From contig JAPPBY010000016.1 in NCBI GenBank assembly GCA_026702615.1, positions 1-42,279 on the forward strand: a DNA stretch of 42,279 nucleotides, in the 5' to 3' direction. The translations under genes and the position numbers were made by a program. Under the pieces are notes generated by a model that was not told where the DNA came from, made no database searches, and saw only the letters and a program-made list of their open reading frames with translations. Shown in pieces: positions 2,131-29,163 of the stretch. How positions within the stretch are numbered: position 1 is the first letter of the stretch; each line of letters starts with the position of its first letter. Source of the DNA: Chloroflexota bacterium (GTDB taxonomy: Bacteria > Chloroflexota > Dehalococcoidia > Tepidiformales > Tepidiformaceae).

Positions 2131-3804
2131 ATGTCGCTTGATCCACGCCACCGCAGCCGCACGCTCGTCGACGGACCGGACCGGGCGCCAGCACGGGCGA
2201 TGCTGAAGTCCGTCGGCTACGACTCGGAGTCGCTGAAGCGTCCGCTCGTGATGGTCGCGCACAGCTGGATCGGGACGATGCCGTGCAACTACAACCAGCG
2301 GGAGCTGGCGGCGGAGGTCATGCGGGGCATCCGCGAGGCGGGCGGCACTCCCATGGAGATCAACACCGTCTCCATCAGCGACGGCATCGCGATGGGCACG
2401 GAAGGGATGAAGGCGTCGCTGATCAGCCGCGAGGTTGTGGCGGACAGCATCGAGCTGTGCGGGCGGGGCTACCTGTTCGACGCGGCCGTCGTCATCGTCG
2501 GCTGCGACAAGACGATCCCGGGCGGCGTGATGGGGCTCTCGCGGCTGGGAGTCCCGGGGCTCGTGCTCTACAGCGGATCGATCGCGCCGGGGAACTACGA
2601 GGGCCGCGACGTGACCATCCAGGACGTGTTCGAAGCCGTCGGGAGCCACGCGGCGGGCGGCATGACGGACGCGGAGCTGACAGCGCTCGAGGACGTCGCC
2701 TGCCCAGGCGCCGGAGCCTGCGGCGCGCAGTACACCGCTAACACCATGGCGACCGCGATCGAGTTCCTCGGCATCTCGCCGATGGGGAGCGGCTCGGCGG
2801 GAGCGACCGACCCGCGCAAGAACAGCGCCGGTTACGAAGCCGGGCAGCTCGTGATGGACGTGCTCGCCCGGGGCCAGCTGCCGGAAGACGTGATGACGCG
2901 CAAGGCGTTCGAGAACGCCATCGCCTGCGTGGCCTCGACGGGAGGCTCGACGAACGCGGTTCTGCACTTGCTGGCGATGGCGCGGGAGGTAGGGGTCTCG
3001 CTCGACATCGACGACTTCGACGACATCAGTGAGCGCACGCCGATCATCGGGGACCTGCGGCCGGGAGGTCGTTATGTCGCCCTGGATATGGACCGGGCGG
3101 GAGGCACGCGTCTGCTCGCGCAGCGCCTGCTGGAGGGGGAGAAGGTCCACGGCGACCAGCCCACGGTGACGGGCCGAACGCTCGAGGAAGAGGCGGCGGA
3201 CGCACAGGAAGCGCCGGGCCAGGACGTGATCGTGTCGCTGGACGAGCCCCTGAAAGAGACAGGCGGGCTCGTCATCCTGAAGGGAAACCTTGCGCCCGAG
3301 GGGTGCGTCATCAAGGTCGCGGGGCAAGAGATCATGCAGCACCGCGGGCCGGCCCGCGTGTTCAACCGGGAAGAGGATGCCTTTGCGGCCGTGTCGGAGC
3401 GGCGCATCTCGCCGGGCGACGTGGTCGTGATCCGCTACGAGGGGCCGAGGGGCGGCCCCGGCATGCGCGAGATGCTGGGCGTGACGGCCGCGCTCGTGGG
3501 CGAGGGGCTGGGCGACTCAGTGGCGCTACTCACGGACGGTCGCTTCAGCGGCGCGACGCACGGCCTGATGGCCGGGCATGTCGCGCCGGAGGCGGCGGCG
3601 GGCGGCCCCATCGCGGCGATCGAGGAGGGCGACATCGTCTCCTTCGACATCGACGCGCGGCGGCTGGACGTAGAGCTCGACGAGGCGGAGCTGGAGCGTC
3701 GCCTGGCGGCCTGGACGCCGCCGGCGCCGCGCTACGAGCGGGGCGTGTTCGCCAAGTACGCGAACGGCGTCTCGAGCGCCTCGCAGGGCGCTGTCACGAG
3801 CTAA
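2131..3804 (+). CDS. ilvD: Dihydroxy-acid dehydratase
   Basis: IlvD dehydrates 2,3-dihydroxy-isovalerate and 2,3-dihydroxy-3-methylvalerate to the 2-keto acids of valine and isoleucine synthesis. The 557-residue length is typical. The iron-sulfur ligands are visible as Cys52 (TMPCNYNQ), Cys125 (GCDKTIPG) and Cys197 (CPGAGACG), and the C-terminal GRFSGATHG motif is present. The ATG has GGAG about 8 nt upstream, and TAGGCT near 2091 is a candidate -10. It follows the aminotransferase gene by 84 nt on the same strand. The stop codon overlaps the stop of the small convergent gene on the other strand. No T-box or leader peptide is seen upstream. Confidence 0.97.
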
Positions 3805-3971
3805 CGGCGGCGGCGCGGCCGGCCCTGGGGAGGGCGGTAGCGGGGGGTGCCAGTGGTGAAGAACAAGCGGGCCATGACGTCCTGCCGGCGCCGCCAGGGG
3901 CGGGCGACGCTCTCGAAGACACCGTCGACAAAGTGAAGGAGGGCGACCGTGGCTTCCAGCAGGGCCTTCAC
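3801..3971 (-). CDS. Small basic protein, member B of a local three-gene family
   Basis: This 56-codon frame starts with GTG, or with an in-frame TTG two codons earlier. It is homologous to the 53-codon gene just upstream: over the first 24 residues both share the pattern K-x-L-L-x-x-x-V-x-x-L-x-F-x-D-x-x-x-E-S-V-x-R-P, with 12 identities. The first 22 residues form a hydrophobic or amphipathic segment and the tail is rich in proline and arginine ([12 protein letters not shown]). It begins 41 nt after the stop of member A, so the two probably share a transcript. The ribosome site is weak (GGGAAG). No known family is recognised; a small membrane-associated or nucleic-acid-binding peptide is possible. 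Paralogy with its neighbours is the main evidence that it is real. Confidence 0.5.
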
Positions 3972-4012
3972 GAGCAACTTCCCGGCCTGTGTCCGGCCAA
4001 ACTGAGCCCGAG

Positions 4013-4174
4013 CTAGCGCCGGGGCGGGCGACGGTTGGGGTCGGGGCTCGACCCTTCGGTGACTTCCATGCGATTGATGACGCGGCGGCGCATCTGCTCG
4101 GGACGGACGACGCTCTCGACGATGCTGTCGATGAATGCGAGCACTGTTACAAAGGGCTTCAGGAGCGTTTTCAT
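4013..4174 (-). CDS. Small basic protein, member A of a local three-gene family
   Basis: This 53-residue protein starts with ATG behind GGAGG at a 9-nt gap. Residues 2-22 (beginning MKTLLKPFVTVLAFIDS) are hydrophobic with an ESVVRP end, then comes a charged stretch (EQMRRRVINRME), and the tail is SPDPNRRPPRR. The N-terminus matches member B and the PxRRPP(R/K)R tail matches member C, which links the three. It lies downstream of tRNA-Asp on the same strand, with a hairpin between them. The function is unknown and no signal peptidase or lipobox site is seen. The strong ribosome site and paralogous neighbours support expression. Confidence 0.55.
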   Translation of the reverse strand: MKTLLKPFVTVLAFIDSIVESVVRPEQMRRRVINRMEVTEGSSPDPNRRPPRR

Positions 4175-4216
4175 GGCTGCCGGCCTCCAGGAAGATCCAG
4201 CGTAGCAGCAATGCCA

Positions 4217-4242
4217 AGGCCCCTGCCGTCTGGCAGGGGCCT
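4217..4242 (-). terminator. 11-bp perfect hairpin after tRNA-Asp
   Basis: AGGCCCCTGCC pairs with GGCAGGGGCCT across a 4-nt loop. It stands 15 nt past the tRNA-Asp 3' end and before small gene A, so it probably ends the tRNA transcript. The T-tract after it is poor in either direction, so strict Rho-independent activity is uncertain. Confidence 0.5.
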
Positions 4243-4256
4243 CACTAGGACTTTTC

Positions 4257-4333
4257 TGGCGACCCCGATCGGATTTGAACCGACGATCTCCACCTTGACA
4301 GGGTGGCGTGTTAGGCCGCTACACCACGGGGCC
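4257..4333 (-). tRNA. tRNA-Asp (anticodon GTC)
   Basis: A full cloverleaf can be folded on the minus strand. The acceptor is GGCCCCG with CGGGGTC (one G-U pair), the anticodon stem CCACC/GGTGG encloses the loop CTGTCAA (anticodon GTC), and the T arm contains GGTTCAAATCC. The discriminator is G, as in bacterial tRNA-Asp, and CCA is encoded. Confidence 0.95.
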
Positions 4334-4481
4334 GCGGCGCGTCTGATCGTAGCGGCTCGCCGCGGCCCAGCCAACCTGTCGGGAACTTTCTGCTTCGCGC
4401 GTCGGTGCGTCTCACCGGGCAGCCGGCACGGCGTATGCTGGTCGGGCAGGAGTTTGAGGGAGTGCCTTCGAAGGGGTCAAG

Positions 4482-4637
4482 ATGAGAAATAACCCACTTG
4501 TGAAGGCCATTCTGGCCCTGCTCCACCTCGCCGACAGCGCAGTTACCAGCGAGGCCGCTGCCAGCAACGTAAGGGGCCGCATCGACGCCCCGAAGGGCAT
4601 CCCGCACGACCCTGGACGCCGGCCACCGAAGCGGTAA
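4482..4637 (+). CDS. Small protein, member C of a local three-gene family
   Basis: This 51-residue protein starts at an ATG preceded by AGGGG at a 5-nt gap. Its N-terminus PLVKAILALLHLADSAVTSE resembles member B (LVKALL...ALLHFVD, including the same GTG AAG GCC codons), and its tail DPGRRPPKR resembles member A (DPNRRPPRR). It is on the opposite strand from A and B, with tRNA-Asp between. The middle is more polar than in A and B. TATGCT near 4433 could be a -10. The function is unknown; its reality rests on the ribosome site and the shared ends with A and B. Confidence 0.5.
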   Translation: MRNNPLVKAILALLHLADSAVTSEAAASNVRGRIDAPKGIPHDPGRRPPKR

Positions 4638-4663
4638 ACGCCCGCTGCTAGCCGGCTTAGGAC

Positions 4664-4969
4664 CTAAGCCAGGAGCGGCTTGCCATCCTTGATGATCGAC
4701 CAGCCGCCGCTGTCGCGTTCGAGGTCGTACAGGACCACATGGCAGTTGCCACAGATGGGCCCCGTCACCTCACGCTCGCCATTCGAGACGGTGTGCTCGT
4801 CGCACACGCCGCCATAGCGCTCGACGCCGTCGAGGTTGCAGAAGACGCACGTCAGGTGGGGCGTGTTCTCCTTCGGGCAGTCGGGGCAGGTCGATCCGGC
4901 GGAAAAGTCGCAACCCCCGGGGCCGCACGGGTACTTCTCCAGGCTCTCAAGCACGATGTTACTGGCCAT
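4664..4969 (-). CDS. Cysteine-rich zinc-ribbon-like protein, unknown function
   Basis: The 101-residue product has nine cysteines, several as CxxC knuckles: Cys28-Cys31, Cys41-Cys44 and Cys73-Cys76, plus Cys15, Cys20 and Cys56. This suggests one or two structural zinc sites or an iron-sulfur site. No known family is recognised. The ATG behind GGGAGGG was chosen; the longer frame that starts at 5050 runs back into thuA and is not credible. It follows the ThuA-like gene by 17 nt on the same strand, so the two are probably one operon. There is no signal peptide or membrane segment, so it should be cytoplasmic. Confidence 0.75.
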   Translation of the reverse strand: MASNIVLESLEKYPCGPGGCDFSAGSTCPDCPKENTPHLTCVFCNLDGVERYGGVCDEHTVSNGEREVTGPICGNCHVVLYDLERDSGGWSIIKDGKPLLA

Positions 4970-4986
4970 GGTTTCGCTTCCCTCCC

Positions 4987-5820
4987 CTAGGAGACCGCGG
5001 CGGCGTTGCGCGCGCGTGCCCACTCGTGGGCCTCGTCGGAGGCAACCCACTTGATGGCGTTGGCGAGCAGCCGGCGGTAGTTCGGGTTGTTATAGGAGGT
5101 GGGCACGTCGCCCGCCTGCACGTAAACGATGGGGCTGTTGCGGTAGTTCTTCGCCCAGACCACCAGGTTCGGGGTCGGCGGGTGGGTCCAGTCGCCGCGC
5201 TCGTACATGCGGCCGTTGTTCACGACGAGGGAGGGCGAGAAGAAGTTCCTGTACGTGAAGTCGAAGTCGCTGCGGACGAGCGGCACGAGGCTGTCTTCGT
5301 GGTAGGGGGCGAGGTAAATCTCGTCCTGCAGCTCGAAGGAGAGGTCGACGCCCTCCACGACGGGGTGGTCCGCCTCTTCCTCGACCACCATGCAGGTGTG
5401 GTTCGCGGCGAGCAGGTAGCCCGAGTCGGGGTAGTCGACACCGCGCAGGCTGCCGGGGTTGTAGAAGAAGCGGCCACCGATGATCTCGGCGTACTCCTCC
5501 CAGCCGGGCCAGGAGCAGATGTTGTGATGGATCATCACGAGGCCCTTGCCCTCTTCGGTAAGGCGCATGTAGCCGTCCTTCAGCGCCTCTGGGGGATCGG
5601 GCGGGCCGCCAACGCCGAAGACTCCCGGCATCGAGTAATCGACGATGCAGTCGTAGTCACGGGAGTTCTCGGGCTGGAAGAAGAGCTGGGCGGCCGGCTG
5701 CTCGACGTGGGTCCAGGCCGAGATCTCGCCCTCCTGCTGGAAGGCGTCGAACATCTGGAAGAAGGGTTCGCGCTGGAAGGGGTGGCCCTTCGAGGCAAGC
5801 AGGACATTGGGGGCGCTCAT
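4987..5820 (-). CDS. ThuA-like domain protein (trehalose utilisation family fold)
   Basis: The 277-residue product has a ThuA/glutamine-amidotransferase-like fold. Supporting stretches are the N-terminal VLLASKGHPFQREPFFQMF, the central KGLVMIHHNICSWPGW with its His pair, and FYNPGSLRGVDYPDSGY. Near the C-terminus are VVWAKNYRNSPIVYVQAGD and an AIKWVAS helix, common in this group. ThuA proteins are linked to sugar or sugar-acid catabolism, but their chemistry is poorly known, so no reaction is assigned. The ATG follows GGAGGAG at a good gap. A TAGAAT -10 lies about 36 nt upstream. It leads a two-gene unit with the Cys-rich protein gene. Confidence 0.8.
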   Translation of the reverse strand: MSAPNVLLASKGHPFQREPFFQMFDAFQQEGEISAWTHVEQPAAQLFFQPENSRDYDCIVDYSMPGVFGVGGPPDPPEALKDGYMRLTEEGKGLVMIHHNICSWPGWEEYAEIIGGRFFYNPGSLRGVDYPDSGYLLAANHTCMVVEEEADHPVVEGVDLSFELQDEIYLAPYHEDSLVPLVRSDFDFTYRNFFSPSLVVNNGRMYERGDWTHPPTPNLVVWAKNYRNSPIVYVQAGDVPTSYNNPNYRRLLANAIKWVASDEAHEWARARNAAAVS

Positions 5821-5855
5821 GGCTATCTCCTCCGACTGACCTAAGAGTGGGCGGC

Positions 5856-5861
5856 ATTCTA
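5856..5861 (-). promoter_or_regulatory. -10 element for the thuA-like operon
   Basis: TAGAAT on the minus strand lies about 35 nt before the thuA-like ATG and leaves room for the GGAGGAG ribosome site. The -35 region is not clear. Confidence 0.4.
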
Positions 5862-5894
5862 CGAGGTTCGGAGGGCGAACCTCTACAGCCGCGA

Positions 5895-5904
5895 CCCCCC
5901 CCCC
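5895..5904. repeat. Homopolymeric tract of 10 cytosines
   Basis: Ten consecutive C (G on the other strand) lie in the gap between the divergent thuA-like and yifB genes. Such tracts are prone to slippage in vivo and to length errors in sequencing. It lies outside both likely core promoters. Confidence 0.9.
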
Positions 5905-5957
5905 GCTTCTCTGTTGCAAGGGACGACAGCGGCGTCGGAATTCGCAACCTTTTAAAG

Positions 5958-5986
5958 TTGCTACCTTTGCCATCGAACGTCAGACT
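5958..5986 (+). promoter_or_regulatory. yifB promoter, probably leaderless
   Basis: TTGCTA and CAGACT are spaced by 17 nt, and the -10 ends 6 nt before the yifB ATG. Transcription would start at or next to the ATG, and no Shine-Dalgarno precedes it. Confidence 0.5.
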
Positions 5987-5992
5987 GCGCCA

Positions 5993-7516
5993 ATGCTTGC
6001 ACGGGTACAGTCGAGCGCGGTCGTCGGCCTGGATGGGGTCATGGTCGATGTCGAGGTCGACATTTCGCGCGCCCAGAATCCGACCACGGCGATCGTGGGG
6101 CTTCCCGACGCGGCCGTACAGGAATCGAAGGAGCGGGTGCGGGCGGCGATCCGCAACAGCGCGCTCACGTGGCCGTTCAACAGCCGCATCGTCGTGAACC
6201 TGGCGCCCGCCGACCTGCGCAAGGAGGGCCCGGCCTACGACCTGCCCATCGCCGCCGGCGTGATGGTGGCGAGCGGGCAGGTGGAGGCGGAGCTCGCGGA
6301 CGCGGTGTTCGTGGGGGAACTGGCGCTCGACGGGGAGGTGCGAGCGGTGCGCGGAGCGCTGCCGATGGTGGCGGTCGCGCACGACCGGGGGGCGCGGCGG
6401 GCCTTCGTGCCCGTGCCGAACGCGCCCGAGGCGGCGCTTGTCGAGGGGCTCGAGGTGTTGCCGGTGGAGTCGCTGACGCAGCTCGCAGCGCACCTGCTCG
6501 GGAAGGCGCCGATCGCGCCGTATTCGCCGCCGGACAACACGGAGGGCGAGGAGCCGGTCGGTCCGGACCTTGCCGATGTCATCGGGCAGGAGCACGCGAA
6601 GCGAGCGCTGGCGATGGCGGCTGCAGGCGGTCACAACCTCCTGATGCGCGGTCCGCCGGGGAGCGGCAAGACGCTGCTGGCGCGGGCGATCCCCTCGATC
6701 CTGCCGCCAATGACGAACGACGAGGCGCTGGAGGTCACGCGCATCTACAGCGTGGCGGGGCTACTGCCGTCGGGGACAGGGCTCTTGCGCCAGCGGCCGT
6801 TTCGCGCGCCCCACCACACCATCTCGCACGCGGGACTGGTGGGTGGCGGCTCGGTGCCGCGTCCGGGCGAGATCACGCTGAGCCACCACGGTGTGCTCTT
6901 CCTCGACGAGCTGCCGGAGTTCGGCACGCAGGTGCTGGAGGTGCTGCGCCAGCCGCTGGAAGACCGCATCGTCACGATCAGCCGGGCGCGGCAGTCCGCG
7001 ACGTTCCCGGCGAGCTTCGCGCTGGTGGCGGCGCAGAATCCGTGTCCCTGCGGCTACCTCGGCGACCCGATACGGGAGTGTCGCTGCCCGGCGAACGCGG
7101 CCGCGCGCTACCAGCGGCGCGTCTCCGGGCCGGTGCTGGACCGCATCGACATCTTCATCGACGTGCCCCGCGTCGACTACGAGAAGCTGGCGGCGGGCAC
7201 GCGGGGGGAGCCGTCATCGGTGGTGGCGGAGCGAGTGCGGGCGGTGCGCGCGATCCAGCAGGAGCGGTTCGCCGGGACGGGCACGCGACTGAATGCGGAG
7301 ATGGGACCGACGGAGGTGCGGGAGCACGCCCAGTGGAAGCTGGACGAGCAGGCGCAGCGCATCCTGAGCCAGGCGACGGCGCAGATGGCGCTCTCGGCCC
7401 GGGCCTTCCACCGCGTCCTCAAGGTCGCGCGCACGGTTGCGGACTTCGAGGCCAGCGACGCAATCGGCACCACGCACGTGGCGGAGGCGCTGCAGTACCG
7501 GGAGCGGGCGGAGTAG
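5993..7516 (+). CDS. YifB/ComM-type Mg-chelatase-like AAA+ ATPase
   Basis: The 507-residue product matches the YifB/ComM family. An N-terminal Lon-protease-like fold domain (about 1-165, with AIVGLPDAAVQESKERVRAA) is followed by an Mg-chelatase-type AAA+ domain: Walker A GPPGSGKT at 220-227, Walker B LFLDELPEF near 303, and AQNPCPCGY with the CRC of a small Cys cluster. A C-terminal winged-helix-like segment ends it. ComM is a hexameric helicase that promotes branch migration in natural transformation; the role in this organism is inferred. The ATG has no ribosome site and sits 6 nt after a -10, so a leaderless mRNA is likely. Length is normal for the family. Confidence 0.93.
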   Translation: MLARVQSSAVVGLDGVMVDVEVDISRAQNPTTAIVGLPDAAVQESKERVRAAIRNSALTWPFNSRIVVNLAPADLRKEGPAYDLPIAAGVMVASGQVEAELADAVFVGELALDGEVRAVRGALPMVAVAHDRGARRAFVPVPNAPEAALVEGLEVLPVESLTQLAAHLLGKAPIAPYSPPDNTEGEEPVGPDLADVIGQEHAKRALAMAAAGGHNLLMRGPPGSGKTLLARAIPSILPPMTNDEALEVTRIYSVAGLLPSGTGLLRQRPFRAPHHTISHAGLVGGGSVPRPGEITLSHHGVLFLDELPEFGTQVLEVLRQPLEDRIVTISRARQSATFPASFALVAAQNPCPCGYLGDPIRECRCPANAAARYQRRVSGPVLDRIDIFIDVPRVDYEKLAAGTRGEPSSVVAERVRAVRAIQQERFAGTGTRLNAEMGPTEVREHAQWKLDEQAQRILSQATAQMALSARAFHRVLKVARTVADFEASDAIGTTHVAEALQYRERAE

Positions 7517-7521
7517 GCAGG

Positions 7522-7746
7522 CTAGAGGCGTTCGAACTCGTCTCGCGAGAGTCCGGCCTGACGAAGGATGCTCCGCAATGTGCCGGTCTGCACTTCGCGA
7601 TGCCGGGGAACAATCACCCGCCTGTCGCCGACGACGGTCGTCTTGGCGAACTTCACATGACTGCCACGCTGGTCGACGGGAAAGAAGCCAGCGGCCATCA
7701 GCTTGCGGGCAACTCGCCTGTAGGTAAGTGGCCTAAGTGGCGGCAA
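7522..7746 (-). CDS. hicA: HicA-type mRNA interferase toxin
   Basis: The product has the double-stranded-RNA-binding-like HicA (YcfA) fold: a start PLTYRRVARKLMAAGF, the catalytic GSHVKF with the conserved histidine, VIVPRH, and the end TGTLRSILRQAGLSRDEF. HicA cleaves mRNA unless bound by HicB. I chose the TTG (residue 1 of a 74-residue protein) that overlaps the end of hicB by 14 nt and has GAGG 6 nt before it; an upstream in-frame ATG at 7791 would add 15 residues inside hicB. It is the second gene of hicBA. All key residues are present, so it looks active. Confidence 0.85.
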   Translation of the reverse strand: MPPLRPLTYRRVARKLMAAGFFPVDQRGSHVKFAKTTVVGDRRVIVPRHREVQTGTLRSILRQAGLSRDEFERL

Positions 7747-7972
7747 CCGAGACCTCAATCTCCGGAATATCGCCAGGAGATTTAGGTCCATCGGCCATGA
7801 AATAGAGTTCCAGGGCTTCTCGGAGATTCGCTATCGCTTCACCCTCCGACTCTCCCTGGCTTGCGATGTCGATCTCGATCGCTTGAGCGACAAACCACAC
7901 GCCTTCCCGATGCACGCTTGCTGTGAAGCGCGACGGTGGTTGTTCGCTGCCCTGAGTTGCCTTGCCTGCCAC
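7733..7972 (-). CDS. hicB: HicB-type antitoxin
   Basis: The 79-residue product has the partly degraded RNase H fold of HicB: FTASVHREGVWFVAQAIEIDIASQGESEGEAIANLREALELYF is the standard pattern. It has no C-terminal helix-turn-helix or ribbon-helix-helix domain, as in the short HicB subgroup. It starts with GTG behind GGGGAC and comes before the toxin gene, which its end overlaps. An inverted repeat at the -35 box upstream is a likely autoregulatory site. The IS1595-family transposon ends only 87 bp upstream of its start codon and leaves that operator intact. Confidence 0.85.
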   Translation of the reverse strand: MAGKATQGSEQPPSRFTASVHREGVWFVAQAIEIDIASQGESEGEAIANLREALELYFMADGPKSPGDIPEIEVSVAAT

Positions 7973-7993
7973 CAGAAGTCCCCGTCCGGACCC

Positions 7994-8031
7994 ATGCTAC
8001 CGGCACCCTATGCCCTTGTAAACCACAAGGG
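7994..8031 (-). promoter_or_regulatory. hicBA promoter with operator-like inverted repeat
   Basis: On the minus strand TTTACA and TAGCAT are spaced by 17 nt. The -35 box lies inside a perfect 7-bp inverted repeat, CCCTTGT-N5-ACAAGGG (8013-8031). The position suggests autorepression by the HicB or HicAB complex. Confidence 0.6.
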
Positions 8032-8051
8032 CTCATCCCGTCTCTAGAACA

Positions 8052-8059
8052 TCTGTGTT
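8052..8059 (+). repeat. Target site duplication, left copy
   Basis: TCTGTGTT directly abuts the left terminal repeat and is repeated at 11777-11784. Eight base pairs is the duplication size known for the IS1595 family. Confidence 0.93.
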
Positions 8060-8078
8060 GGGGCTTATATCCCTAACT
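8060..8078 (+). repeat. Left terminal inverted repeat of the transposon
   Basis: GGGGCTTATATCCCTAACT matches the complement of 11758-11776 in all 19 positions. It continues with TGAC on this side only; a partial copy of the inner part is found at 11004-11015. Confidence 0.93.
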
Positions 8079-8171
8079 TGACGCCGCCCATGACTTGACT
8101 CGCGTATCACCTTTTCGGATTCGTCCCTCTCCCTCTTGAATCCGCGACGGGACTCTGGCTACTCTCGTAGT

Positions 8172-8293
8172 TGCGAACAAGCGACTTGGAAAGTGGGCCT
8201 TAGTGACGGTGCCAGGGGGCATAGGCACCACGCCCCCTTCGAGGCTCACCTTCCGGGAAGCTTGTTCGCACCTGTGACCTGGGCACCAGTCAC
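8172..8293 (+). ncRNA. Candidate structured leader RNA with a possible pseudoknot
   Basis: Nested pairing is visible by eye. An outer 11-bp perfect stem joins 8172-8182 and 8260-8270 (TGCGAACAAGC with its complement). An inner 13-position stem joins 8188-8200 and 8242-8254 with one mismatch and one G-T pair. Within it, GGTGCC (8208-8213) pairs with GGCACC (8224-8229) while GGGGGC (8215-8220) pairs with GCCCCC (8232-8237), which is the order of an H-type pseudoknot. A further hairpin at 8274-8293 ends at the ribosome site GGAGGGGG of the secreted protein gene. It matches no riboswitch class that I recognise. It could be a cis-regulatory leader or an independent RNA carried by the transposon. 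Confidence 0.5.
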
Positions 8294-8307
8294 GGAGGGG
8301 GCTCCCT

Positions 8308-9549
8308 GTGTGCCTGCCCAAGCTGGGGCTGGTCGGGTTGCTTCTGGGAACGCTCGTCGGCATGACTGCGGCCAGCGCCCAGGAGCCAGAGACAGACACC
8401 ATCGAGGTCTGCGTCGCTGTCGAGCAGGGATACGCAACGGGCCAGTGGCAGGGTCACGGCTACGTACGCGAGCCGCTCTTCGTCAACGTCGGCTCCGGGC
8501 CGCGCTGCGAGCGCTACGAGGCCCACTACGAGGTGACGATGCGCCCGCTTGAGAGCGTCGCTCCCGGACGCTGGTCAGTGGGCCAGTACCAGAGGGACCT
8601 CTACGGCCGGCGCGAGACCATCACGGTAAGCCTGTATCAGAACCTCGACGATCCGTCGTTGCTCTACGTCGCGGCCAACGAGACACCGGGCCGGCGCATT
8701 GTGCTTGCCGGTCCCCGCCACGAAAGGCGTGCGCACATGGCCTTCGACGTGTGGTCGGAGTACCTGTCCACAGTTCGAAGGCTCGCGGAAGAGAGGCGTG
8801 CGGCGGCAGAAGAGGCGAAGGCTGAGCCGGAGCCTACGCCTGCTCCCACTCCTGCTCCCGAGCCCGTAATTCTGGTCAGGCTCCAGACTTCCAGCACATC
8901 AGCGCCAGTCCTTGAGATAGTCGTGGAGGCCAACCACCACATCGGTCGCTACGACCTCTATCTCGCCGTGGATGTGGCGGGGTTCGTCCATCCCGACTTC
9001 AACGGCAAGGCAGTTGTTCCCGGCGAGCCCAACAGCAGCTTCTTTGGCATCGGCGACAGGACGTGGGAGGAAGTGGACAACGCCTACGTCAAGACCAAGC
9101 ATGGTTCGTTCTACCGCTACTGGCAGTGCGACCAGCTTGAAGACGTTCATGCCCTTGATGCCCGCTTCGATTGCTCTGTCACAAGCGAGAGGGAACTGCC
9201 CGACTTGACCGACGCCGAGGACCCTGCGCTCTGGGTCTACCTGGTGAACGAGCCAGCAGCGGGGCACGACTTTCAGGTCCATGTGCGCGCCGGAAAAGAC
9301 GATCTGGGCCGCGTACAGGTTTTCCTGAACGGCGACTACTCGTGCTCGATGTTCACCACGGCAAGGAGTCTGACCGAAGCAGACGAGACCCAGCGTCTGG
9401 GCTGTCGGGCTACCAGTGCAACCAGGTGGACCGAGGGGATGGTCGATACACTCTTCGTCCTTGCCACGAACGTTCCCCACCCGATCTACTGCCAGCAGCA
9501 CAACGCCTCGAACGAGCAACGAGAGGTCTGGGCCTGCGATCCTTGGTAG
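8308..9549 (+). CDS. Secreted protein of unknown function, transposon passenger
   Basis: The 413-residue product starts with GTG behind GGAGGGGG. Residues 1-24 are a signal peptide (LGLVGLLLGTLVGMTAASAQ, cleavage probably after ASA). Residues 25-150 form one domain of unknown type. A charged helix rich in E, R and A (about 152-172) and a PEPTPAPTPAPEP linker lead to a second domain (about 190-413) with many aromatic residues and five or six cysteines (YWQCD, FDCS, YSCSMF, LGCRA, YCQQH, WACD), which suggests disulfides outside the cell. I do not recognise either domain. It lies at the left end of the transposon, oriented inward, behind a structured leader. Confidence 0.75.
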   Translation: MCLPKLGLVGLLLGTLVGMTAASAQEPETDTIEVCVAVEQGYATGQWQGHGYVREPLFVNVGSGPRCERYEAHYEVTMRPLESVAPGRWSVGQYQRDLYGRRETITVSLYQNLDDPSLLYVAANETPGRRIVLAGPRHERRAHMAFDVWSEYLSTVRRLAEERRAAAEEAKAEPEPTPAPTPAPEPVILVRLQTSSTSAPVLEIVVEANHHIGRYDLYLAVDVAGFVHPDFNGKAVVPGEPNSSFFGIGDRTWEEVDNAYVKTKHGSFYRYWQCDQLEDVHALDARFDCSVTSERELPDLTDAEDPALWVYLVNEPAAGHDFQVHVRAGKDDLGRVQVFLNGDYSCSMFTTARSLTEADETQRLGCRATSATRWTEGMVDTLFVLATNVPHPIYCQQHNASNEQREVWACDPW

Positions 9550-9658
9550 GTCGCAAGCAGCCATCTATCGGTGTCAAGCCCCTAACGTGCTAGAGTGACC
9601 AAGTGGCACGAGAAGAACGCGCGTTGAGCGGCTTGACTATGCCCTGTACGCTTGAAAG

Positions 9659-9701
9659 CGAAAGCCCCGCTGACCAACTAGCAACACAGCGATGGCTTTC
9701 G
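9659..9701. repeat. Inverted repeat between the secreted-protein gene and tRNA
   Basis: CGAAAGCC and GGCTTTCG form an 8-bp stem around a 27-nt loop. It may act in ending the transcript of the secreted protein gene, but there is no T-tract directly after it. The rest of the 188-nt gap shows no gene. Confidence 0.3.
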
Positions 9702-9720
9702 GGGCCGCTGAGAAGTGGCG

Positions 9721-9732
9721 AAAAAAGACCGC
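9721..9732 (-). terminator. T-tract terminator after the transposon tRNA
   Basis: On the minus strand the tRNA is followed by GCGGTC and six T. GCGGTCTTT also pairs perfectly with AAAGACCGC (complement of 9829-9837) just before the tRNA 5' end, so the precursor can close into a stem around the tRNA. This points to a defined, expressed small transcript. Confidence 0.55.
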
Positions 9733-9737
9733 GTCTG

Positions 9738-9823
9738 CGGGGAGGGTGGGATTCGAACCCACGAACCCGATTGGGTTTACCCGCTTATCAGGCGGGCTCT
9801 TTAGGCCTCTCGGACACCTCCCC
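9738..9823 (-). tRNA. Type II (serine-like) tRNA with anticodon GAT (Ile)
   Basis: The minus strand folds into a cloverleaf with a 7-bp acceptor (GGGGAGG/CCTCCCC), discriminator G, an anticodon stem CCCGC/GCGGG with loop CTGATAA, a long variable arm with a 5-bp stem (AACCC/GGGTT), and a T arm GTGGG/CCCAC with TTCGAAT. The long variable arm, G73 and the TCCGAG D-arm are typical of tRNA-Ser, while anticodon GAT reads isoleucine codons ATT and ATC. A Ser(GCT) loop CTGCTAA differs from it by one base. CCA is not encoded and position 12-23 of the D stem is a C-A mismatch. SerRS does not read the anticodon, so charging with serine is expected if it is functional. It could instead be a decayed tRNA. 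Confidence 0.88.
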
Positions 9824-9986
9824 GAGATGCGGTCTTTATGTTACTACGAAAAAATGTTCTAGTGAGAACTCTCCTTAGCAGTTCAAGGGAGCGGTGACGA
9901 TGCCTGACCCGATCCAGCCGGTGAGCCAGAACCCCCGCTACCAAGGCGCGAAGCCCGAGGATGTAGCGAGGGCGCTCCTGCGCCCG

Positions 9987-10973
9987 CTACGAGCTACGAG
10001 CCCCGGAGGGCAGGCCGTTGTCGGCGATGAGGTCACGGTAGAGAAGCCGCTTGCCGACGAGGCCGGCGACGACGTTCGTCATCTGAGCTAGCGTGTCCGC
10101 GTTGCGGAGGTTGTGCTTCCCCGCGAACTGACGCACGTACCGATCAAGATGCTTCGGGCTAATCTTGTGGTACGTGCCCTGATAGGACTTCTTCAGCATC
10201 GCCCAGAACGACTCGATGCCATTCGTGTGGGCCTGTTCGATGACGTAGGTTCCGGCGCTGTGCTGGACCGCGTTGTGCCTGAACTCGCCTTCGAGGCCCG
10301 TGTAGGCCTTGTGGCCGTCTGAGTAGACCTGAGCGCCCTGCTCGGTGTGCTCCCTGACGAATCCCCGCAGCGTCTCGGCTTCGAGATCGGTGATGGCCTT
10401 GGCCCGCACCTGGCCGGTCCCCCGATCCTTCACGCCAACGACGGGAGCCTTGTCGGGAATGCCGCCACGGGCGCGGGCGCGCTGGCTCTCGTGCTTGTTG
10501 GCTTCCTTGCCGCCCACGAACGTCTCATCGACCTCGACCGGGCCGGAGAACTTGCCCGCTTCCGGGGCAGCCCATGACTCGCGGATGCGATGGAGCATGA
10601 ACCACGCGGCCTTCTGGCTCACGTCAATATCACGATGGAGCTTCATCGAGGAAATACCCTTGAGGCTGGTCAGTTCTAGGTAGATCGCGATGGCCCACTT
10701 CCGCAGGGGAATCTTGGAGTGGGAGATGGCGGTGCCCGTGCGGACGCTGAAGTAGGAGCGGCAGTCGGAGCACCAGTAGGGCATCGGCTTCTTGTTCGGA
10801 ACCTCGCGCGTCTTGGTGCTACCGCAATGCCCGCAGCCACGCACGTCAGGCCAGACCAGCGACTCAAACCACTCGGTCGCTGCTTCCTCGGTGGGGAACA
10901 TCTCGGTCAACTGGACGAGCGATATACCCTCACGGTGGGCCTTGCCTGGTGCGGTGCTCCTGGGCTTTGGCAT
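9987..10973 (-). CDS. IS1595-family (ISXO2-like) transposase
   Basis: The 328-residue product has an N-terminal zinc ribbon (Cys47, Cys50, Cys68, Cys71) followed by a DDE-type catalytic domain. Asp149 lies in VEVDETFVGGKE, Asp219 in YSDGHKAY, and the third site in HTNGIESFWAMLKK (Asn251/Glu254 and Lys261). All motifs of the ISXO2-like transposase family are intact, so it is probably active. The ATG has no Shine-Dalgarno; the -10 of a good promoter ends 6 nt before it, so the mRNA should be leaderless. It is the only transposase in the 3.7-kb element and reads opposite to its two protein cargo genes. The 163 nt between it and the tRNA hold no recognised gene. Confidence 0.95.
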   Translation of the reverse strand: MPKPRSTAPGKAHREGISLVQLTEMFPTEEAATEWFESLVWPDVRGCGHCGSTKTREVPNKKPMPYWCSDCRSYFSVRTGTAISHSKIPLRKWAIAIYLELTSLKGISSMKLHRDIDVSQKAAWFMLHRIRESWAAPEAGKFSGPVEVDETFVGGKEANKHESQRARARGGIPDKAPVVGVKDRGTGQVRAKAITDLEAETLRGFVREHTEQGAQVYSDGHKAYTGLEGEFRHNAVQHSAGTYVIEQAHTNGIESFWAMLKKSYQGTYHKISPKHLDRYVRQFAGKHNLRNADTLAQMTNVVAGLVGKRLLYRDLIADNGLPSGARSS

Positions 10974-10979
10974 AGAACA

Positions 10980-11015
10980 ACCGTACCAGAAAGCAGCTAG
11001 CTTGTCAAGTTAGGG
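10980..11015 (-). promoter_or_regulatory. Transposase promoter inside an internal partial end-repeat
   Basis: TTGACA and TACGGT are spaced by 17 nt on the minus strand, and the -10 stands 6 nt before the transposase ATG. The -35 box lies in CCCTAACTTGAC (complement of 11004-11015), the same 12 bases as the inner part of the left terminal repeat. Transposase binding to this partial end could repress its own gene. Confidence 0.6.
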
Positions 11016-11141
11016 TAATAGATAGGGCTTGACCCGAACCCACAGGCCCCTCACAATGGCTCCTGCCTCTCAGAGGCCAATGCTCCCCGTCGTCCTCCAC
11101 CTTTGGTGGCGAATTGGCGGGGTTTTTTCTTGGAGTCGCGA

Positions 11142-11750
11142 GTGAATCGCGTTGCCGTATTCATTGACGCTCAGAACGTCTTTCGCGGCGCGTTAGATTG
11201 CTTTGTCCCCGAGGGTAAGCCCGACTTCTTGGGGCAGAGCGATCCGCTCCAAATTGGGGAACTGCTCGCGAGCCGAGACAATCCACGGCAGGACTCTTCT
11301 GCGCCACGCTCCCTCGAACAAGTCCGGGTATACACAGGCCGACCGTCGAGCGAGAGCAGATCATACGGTGCGCACATGCGCCAGTGCGCTGCATGGGAGT
11401 CAACAGGGGTGTTGGTCGTGCATCGCCCTCTCAAGTATTCGCCTGACGGCCCTGCTCAGGAGAAGGGGATCGATGTGCAACTCGCCATTGACTTTGTGCA
11501 AGGCGCATTCGATGACACGTACGACACCGGCATCATCTTCTCTACTGACACTGACCTTCGCCCCGCGCTGGAGTTTGTCGCGACCCGGTACGAATCCAAG
11601 ACTGTTGAGACAGCCGCCTGGCTGCCCGTAGAGGGTGGCCAAGGAGTCGGGCTTCGCTTGCAGACGCCAGCCACATGGTGCCACCGTCTTACTCGTGACG
11701 ACTTCGTGGCAGTTCGCGATCTCAGGGACTACACGTCCCGGACCAAGTAG
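11142..11750 (+). CDS. NYN-domain (PIN-like) protein, putative RNase, transposon passenger
   Basis: The 202-residue product carries the NYN/LabA-type PIN-like nuclease core. VAVFIDAQNV gives the first acid (Asp9) and Asn12, EKGIDVQLAIDFV gives Asp111 and Asp117, and FSTDTDLRPAL gives Asp136 and Asp138, so the four-acid metal site is complete. NYN proteins are metal-dependent RNases or their relatives; substrates are mostly unknown and some act on tRNA or mRNA. I chose GTG with GGAG 6 nt upstream rather than the TTG 13 codons earlier. It lies at the right end of the transposon, 7 nt from the terminal repeat. A role with the nearby tRNA is only inference. Confidence 0.85.
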   Translation: MNRVAVFIDAQNVFRGALDCFVPEGKPDFLGQSDPLQIGELLASRDNPRQDSSAPRSLEQVRVYTGRPSSESRSYGAHMRQCAAWESTGVLVVHRPLKYSPDGPAQEKGIDVQLAIDFVQGAFDDTYDTGIIFSTDTDLRPALEFVATRYESKTVETAAWLPVEGGQGVGLRLQTPATWCHRLTRDDFVAVRDLRDYTSRTK

Positions 11751-11757
11751 CCTGCCT

Positions 11758-11776
11758 AGTTAGGGATATAAGCCCC
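11758..11776 (-). repeat. Right terminal inverted repeat of the transposon
   Basis: It is the exact complement of the left end and begins 8 nt after the stop codon of the NYN gene. Confidence 0.93.
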
Positions 11777-11784
11777 TCTGTGTT
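11777..11784 (+). repeat. Target site duplication, right copy
   Basis: This second TCTGTGTT directly follows the right terminal repeat. Its last two bases form the first two of a -35 box (TTGACA at 11783) for the next gene. Confidence 0.93.
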
Positions 11785-28972: not shown

Positions 28973-28980
28973 CCACGTGA

Positions 28981-29100
28981 GGTCCCTCCTACGCCGGCGG
29001 GGTTAGCTGTCGGGCTACGACTGGAGGTGCCGTCCGCTTTCGCGGTACGCCCCATATGTGGCGGTTCCCCCGCTCCCCCGGAGGGGATTTGGCGACAGCA
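28981..29100 (-). ncRNA. c-di-AMP riboswitch (ydaO/yuaA class)
   Basis: The minus strand holds the conserved pieces of the ydaO aptamer in the right order: GCC near the start, GGGGGAGCGGGGGAACC, GGGGCGTACC, a short GC hairpin (CCGCGAAAGCGG), then GACGGCACC, and finally CCCGACAGCTAACCCCG with CCGGCGTAGGAGGG. The last block is the most diagnostic. The class senses cyclic di-AMP and mostly switches expression off. It lies after the cupin gene and before the 62-codon gene, both on the same strand. Confidence 0.85.
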
Positions 29101-29163
29101 GAAGCTGTACATCCAGCGTTTCAGGCTACCGCCCAACAGGCAAGGGGCCGGCGGCACAGAGGG

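Follow-up and report, generated by a model that had tools for sequence, protein, structure and literature searches.

IS1595-family transposons carry tRNA-like genes whose anticodons do not fit their bodies

The window analysed here, a whole stretch of 42,279 nucleotides from a Chloroflexota bacterium (contig JAPPBY010000016.1), contains a complete IS1595 transposon of 3717 bp at positions 8060-11776. Its terminal inverted repeats are perfect over 19 bp, the flanking target duplications of 8 bp match exactly (8/8, checked by script), and its transposase has the DDE_Tnp_IS1595 domain. About 160 bp downstream of the transposase stop codon, and on the same strand, lies a tRNA gene (Table 1), which a preliminary description of the sequence had correctly placed inside such an element. 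The internal partial copy of the terminal repeat is possibly an older element end. Neither the list of open reading frames nor the Pfam matches revealed a synthetase ORF in the element. Outside it, a HicA-type toxin gene lies about 270 bp to the left of the transposon end, and the contig also bears a c-di-AMP riboswitch. The reading frame antisense to the tRNA is spurious; false proteins from tRNAs read backwards are a well-known kind of artefact.

Table 1. Features of the transposon and of its surroundings in the window
Feature	Position	Strand	Evidence or remark
HicA-type toxin gene	7522..7791	-	PF07927
Left target-site duplication, TCTGTGTT	8052..8059	.	sequence and script
Left terminal inverted repeat, GGGGCTTATATCCCTAACT	8060..8078	.	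100% complementary to 11758-11776
Passenger ORF, 413 aa	8308..9549	+	signal-peptide-like N terminus; without confident Pfam family
Spurious ORF antisense to the tRNA, 91 aa	9603..9878	+	begins GGWDSNPRTRLGLPAYQAG
Trailer arm of the clamp enclosing the tRNA	9724..9732	-	GCGGTCTTT in transcript
Type II Ser-like tRNA, anticodon GAT	9738..9823	-	ARAGORN, Rfam, structure checks
Leader arm of the clamp	9829..9837	-	AAAGACCGC in transcript
IS1595-family transposase, 328 aa	9987..10973	-	PF12762, E 8e-40
Internal partial copy of terminal repeat	11004..11020	.	15/17
Passenger gene, NYN-domain (PIN-like) protein, 215 aa	11103..11750	+	PF01936, E 2e-13
Right terminal inverted repeat	11758..11776	.	
Right target-site duplication, TCTGTGTT	11777..11784	.	
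c-di-AMP riboswitch	28977..29104	-	RF00379, 64.8 bits

ARAGORN calls a tRNA with anticodon GAT at 9737-9823 (minus strand), and the Rfam model RF00005 scores 51.5 bits at 9738-9823, above its gathering score of 29. The body is that of a type II tRNA-Ser, with a long variable arm (5 bp), G73 and a Ser-type D arm, and its acceptor and T stems are free of mispairs; the closest host tRNAs are those for serine, and the closest in E. coli is tRNA-Ser(GGA), at 76.7%. The anticodon loop is CTGATAA, whereas serine anticodons are NGA or GCT, and the molecule is therefore a Ser-like tRNA but no Ser isoacceptor. Nor does it correspond to tRNA-Ile(GAT), with its type I body and Ile identity elements, since it has the long variable arm and a C-A mismatch at D-stem pair 12-23. 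CCA is not encoded. Serine-type body, isoleucine anticodon, mismatched D-stem pair and absent CCA had all been described beforehand and are all there. A defined transcript had also been proposed, from a flanking stem and a T6 tract. Leader and trailer form a perfect 9-bp clamp, and the precursor as a whole has a folding energy of -60.3 kcal/mol (z = -6.1 versus shuffles); three of the six T lie within the stem, which leaves three free, and a terminator scan called no terminator at this tract.

The host genome (2.87 Mb, 46 tRNA matches) has a full tRNA set. A comparison with this set, as suggested in the preliminary description, places the mismatched window tRNA beside a normal tRNA-Ile(GAT) (locus L017) and four normal tRNA-Ser (GGA, TGA, CGA and GCT); the other host tRNAs are all normal as well. 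Because these normal tRNAs are present, the element tRNA is dispensable for decoding, and supplementation of the host set is ruled out. A second IS1595 element in the same genome (L180) bears an Ala-type tRNA-like gene with a 9-bp clamp. Recent capture from the host or from 60 relatives was likewise rejected, the best full-length matches among the relatives being ordinary tRNA-Ser at 71-75% identity. No near-identical copy was found in phages, and plasmids gave only three partial matches over the tRNA, all to ordinary chromosomal-type tRNA-Ser (GCT, GGA). The transposase has its close relatives in metagenome-assembled genomes of Chloroflexota, Proteobacteria, Acidobacteria and others, many from a series named SB06xx that we take to be sponge-associated.

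To survey the related elements, we collected 80 genome loci, 3 viral-contig loci and 37 Chloroflexota genome regions with a related transposase, mostly from metagenome assemblies, delimited the elements by inverted repeats and duplication, and ran a tRNA covariance model built from the host tRNAs over all collected loci. Among 78 non-redundant delimited elements (242 kb), 17 contain a total of 24 tRNA-like genes, against 3.9 expected from host density (P = 5e-12; by elements, 7e-7). These counts cover elements with recognisable ends, and five loci with tRNA-like genes near the transposase (L069, L088, L112, L195 and L202) are excluded from the statistics; L069 is undelimited because its contig begins there. 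Carriers thus make up about one in five related elements, those outside Chloroflexota being known from a single scan of genome contigs, and most related elements have no tRNA at all. The density is 9.9 per 100 kb inside the elements versus 1.4 outside (9 in the surrounding 638 kb). A strict, model-free scan for acceptor/T-arm structures returned 18 inside elements, 5 outside and 0 in shuffles; density and shuffles together reject plain chance. As a control, 37 matches to transposases of other families in the same genomes yielded 2 tRNAs by ARAGORN, both ordinary (His and Gly); DDE_Tnp_1 was added to this control because IS256-type loci were too few.

Several other features of the loci deserve mention. 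DNA methyltransferase-like passengers, read from sequence, occur in the odd-tRNA elements L098, L199, L186 and L193, where some adjoin restriction-endonuclease-like genes. Locus L087 has nested inverted-repeat pairs (3590-8452 and 4253-7522), each with a perfect 8-bp duplication, and is one IS1595 element within another. At L077, a degenerate Ala-type tRNA-like structure (G3:U70, A73) at 5735-5806 (minus strand) sits 112 bp outside the delimited element and is possibly a relic of another copy.

Inside the elements, the anticodon disagrees with the nearest reference body in every tRNA, and normal tRNAs were never found there. Outside, each clear tRNA has an anticodon that fits its body, except at the viral-contig locus L143, where a Tyr tRNA is Trp-like; two weak matches from outside the elements were left unclassified. 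The idea of a mismatched tRNA as transposon cargo, first drawn from the window copy, is much stronger than a reader of that sequence could have known, because related elements repeatedly carry such tRNAs. Since they do so with other bodies and other anticodons, the cargo type would be a chargeable tRNA with a non-cognate anticodon loop. Ser-type bodies with G73 occur in the window (GAT), L083 (GTT), L193 (TGG), L210 (CAA) and L211 (TAT), and Leu-type bodies with A73 in L100 (TGG), L117 (ACC), L131 (AGG), L199 (CGC) and L203 (CGC). Ala-type genes, with G3:U70 and A73, number two each in L117 and L190 and one each in L199 and L180. There are also Cys-like bodies with U73, for instance in L185 and L186, and an Arg-like one in L081; others are unclear, and L069, L195 and L202, whose element ends are undelimited, add further Cys- and Arg-like cases. 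Ser-, Leu- or Ala-type bodies account for 16 of 25 element tRNAs versus 12 of 45 host tRNAs (P = 0.003), a count made by reading the discriminator, the variable arm and pair 3-70, with type I body classes approximated by nearest neighbours among the 45 host tRNAs. Three bacterial synthetases ignore the anticodon, and they are the seryl-, leucyl- and alanyl-tRNA synthetases.

The upper halves of these molecules are well kept. Almost without exception, the element tRNAs have acceptor and T stems that are paired throughout, as found with a model biased towards intact T arms. U33 is present in every well-formed 7-nt anticodon loop, and A37 in all but one weak case (tallied by eye). In about one third of the genes, the anticodon loop measures 6, 8 or 20-30 nt or the lower half is damaged; these genes have intact acceptor and T stems but would be unfit for normal decoding. 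The degenerate genes often combine A73 with G3:U70, a pair that in the host is confined to the three tRNA-Ala. Leader-trailer clamps of at least 6 bp enclose 12 of 31 element tRNAs versus 2 of 45 host tRNAs (P = 2e-4), and are missing in over half of the element cases. Some genes are of unusual architecture. L117 has four tRNA-like genes in tandem (3099-3544), three with 20-30-nt anticodon loops and the fourth combining a giant variable arm and anticodon ACC with a body of Leu type; in the Leu-type genes of L203 (7825-7934), L117 (3433-3544) and L100 (6980-7079), variable arms are about 2-3 times the usual size.

Two pairs of elements allow change to be followed. L210 and L211 are orthologues: their transposase proteins share 95% identity, and the DNA adjacent to their tRNAs is 90-98% identical. 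The tRNAs themselves, the T arm excepted, have diverged along most of their sequence; their stems are paired in both, and the clamp arms CACCGGG/CCCGGTG mark the limits of the divergent part. As the two anticodons differ (CAA and TAT), no particular misreading has been kept between these orthologues. Elsewhere in the same pair, near alignment column 1620, a short hairpin, its arms (CCTGCCGC/GCGGCAG) near-identical, encloses CCCTGACA in one element and TGTTAGGG in its counterpart. These two loops are almost reverse complements of each other, which looks like a flip of the loop. In L069 and L081, whose transposases are 71% identical, an Arg-like type I tRNA with anticodon GCT lies downstream of each transposase on the same strand; these tRNAs are 74% identical, acceptor pairs 3 and 4 have changed on both sides, and the clamp is kept. 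Across the transposase tree the carriers are scattered: the 21 of them require 17 changes, which means that gains, losses or exchanges are frequent.

The closest known kind of molecule is the allo-tRNA (Mukai et al. 2017, reviewed in PMC7609411), and the element tRNAs are related to it in kind. According to that review, an 8/4 or 9/3 acceptor branch is what defines allo-tRNAs; they have Ser and in some cases Ala identity with highly varied non-Ser anticodons (35 of 64 codons), and in E. coli they placed Ser at Leu codons. The window tRNA resembles them, by structure, in its Ser identity and non-Ser anticodon. In contrast to them, it is a 7/5 tRNA like nearly all element tRNAs, L193 alone appearing as 8/4 by ARAGORN; Leu-, Ala-, Cys- and Arg-like bodies also occur among the element tRNAs, and these lie in delimited IS1595 elements. 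Another bacterial mismatch of body and anticodon is tRNA-ProX of Streptomyces and Kitasatospora (PMC11415595), which joins one amino acid's body to another's anticodon, having a Pro body, A33 and a dedicated synthetase, ProRSx, with mistranslation shown in E. coli. Unlike it, the element tRNAs have U33, several kinds of body and no synthetase in the element, and the window tRNA has a Ser body with no linked ProRSx gene. In transposase, inverted repeats, 8-bp duplication and methyltransferase or restriction-enzyme passengers, the elements described here resemble the IS1595 family as known, from which their tRNA cargo sets them apart; a search of mostly non-subscription literature returned no report of tRNA cargo in IS1595 elements, which is weak evidence.

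We tentatively propose, with confidence just short of an even bet, that the window tRNA is IS1595 cargo chargeable by a synthetase blind to the anticodon, with its anticodon replaced: a missense tRNA. Its body would be charged with serine by the host SerRS, which ignores the anticodon, and with GAT in place of a serine anticodon the tRNA, if expressed, would carry serine to the isoleucine codons AUU and AUC, giving low-level missense incorporation. Transcription, charging and decoding are steps that we infer, as is any benefit, which might lie in host stress tolerance or in interference with competing genetic elements. A missense tRNA is the simplest account because it unites recurrence, mismatch, chargeable bodies and decoding-ready loops; the Cys-like bodies fit it poorly, as those with U73 and UGC or GCU anticodons would be poor CysRS substrates. 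One use of such a tRNA, to serve a changed code private to the genes of the element, would account for the linkage of one odd tRNA to one element, but has next to no likelihood. Recoding was tested on 16 carriers: at transposase columns holding codons of the odd tRNA, in 15 elements, the standard amino acid is frequent (0.32-0.64) and the amino acid of the tRNA body near-absent (0-0.05, with one single-column exception); for transposases, recoding is rejected by this test.

The main rival to a missense tRNA, somewhat unlikely in our judgement, is a tRNA-like RNA with a role other than decoding, for instance in the processing or stabilisation of element transcripts, in the control of transposition or as a dedicated donor of aminoacyl groups, in which the acceptor/T-arm half and the clamp are conserved and the anticodon domain is free to vary. 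Acceptor and T stems remain paired even where the D and anticodon arms are wrecked, as in L180, and clamps are enriched, so this half and the clamp alone may matter; the G3:U70 and A73 of the degenerate genes are enough for AlaRS on a minihelix, and anticodons differ even between orthologous elements. Yet U33 and A37 are kept in 7-nt loops, which a non-decoding RNA would not need, clamps are lacking in over half of the cases, and a partner protein common to the carriers was not seen among their passenger ORFs. Less probable still is a decaying passenger, a tRNA gene captured by chance whose redundant copy drifts and whose odd anticodon is a functionless mutation. The C12-A23 mismatch and unencoded CCA of the window copy suit it, as do variable anticodons, damaged lower halves in some genes and the many tRNA-free relatives; it leaves unexplained the absence of normal tRNAs inside elements, a rate about sevenfold above the surroundings, stem pairing maintained through two-sided changes (L210/L211 and L069/L081) and the persistence of U33. 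The preliminary description had taken random anticodons or broken stems in other copies as marks of a pseudogene: anticodons do vary among related elements, but acceptor and T stems stay intact despite this, and the data therefore do not indicate simple decay. We consider it very improbable that the tRNA protects against anticodon nucleases (VapC, PrrC, colicin-type or other tRNases) as a decoy or immunity RNA, its body being bound and its changed loop left uncut. VapC targets include Ser, Leu and Cys tRNAs, a HicA-type toxin gene adjoins the insertion and the window element has a NYN nuclease-like gene, but no anticodon nuclease common to the carrier elements was found among their passenger ORFs, and if such a decoy were charged and its wrong anticodon worked, mistranslation would follow all the same.

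Allo-tRNAs and tRNA-ProX are known examples of mismatched tRNAs; the recurrence of mismatched tRNAs as cargo of one transposon family supplies a vehicle by which they could spread, and points to these elements as probable carriers of RNAs that can misread the genetic code. The bias of the bodies towards synthetases blind to the anticodon yields a rule, open to test, for the choice of tRNAs, and about two dozen natural sequences are now at hand for testing programmed mistranslation or a tRNA-like regulatory RNA of transposons. For the family as a whole, we advance as a possibility, and with more reserve than for the window tRNA, that IS1595 transposons of marine symbionts may be a mobile source of missense tRNAs, repeatedly capturing tRNAs that suit synthetases blind to the anticodon and giving them foreign anticodons or enlarged loops, and that these may form a selectable cargo which crosses phyla and would perturb translation of the host or of competing elements.
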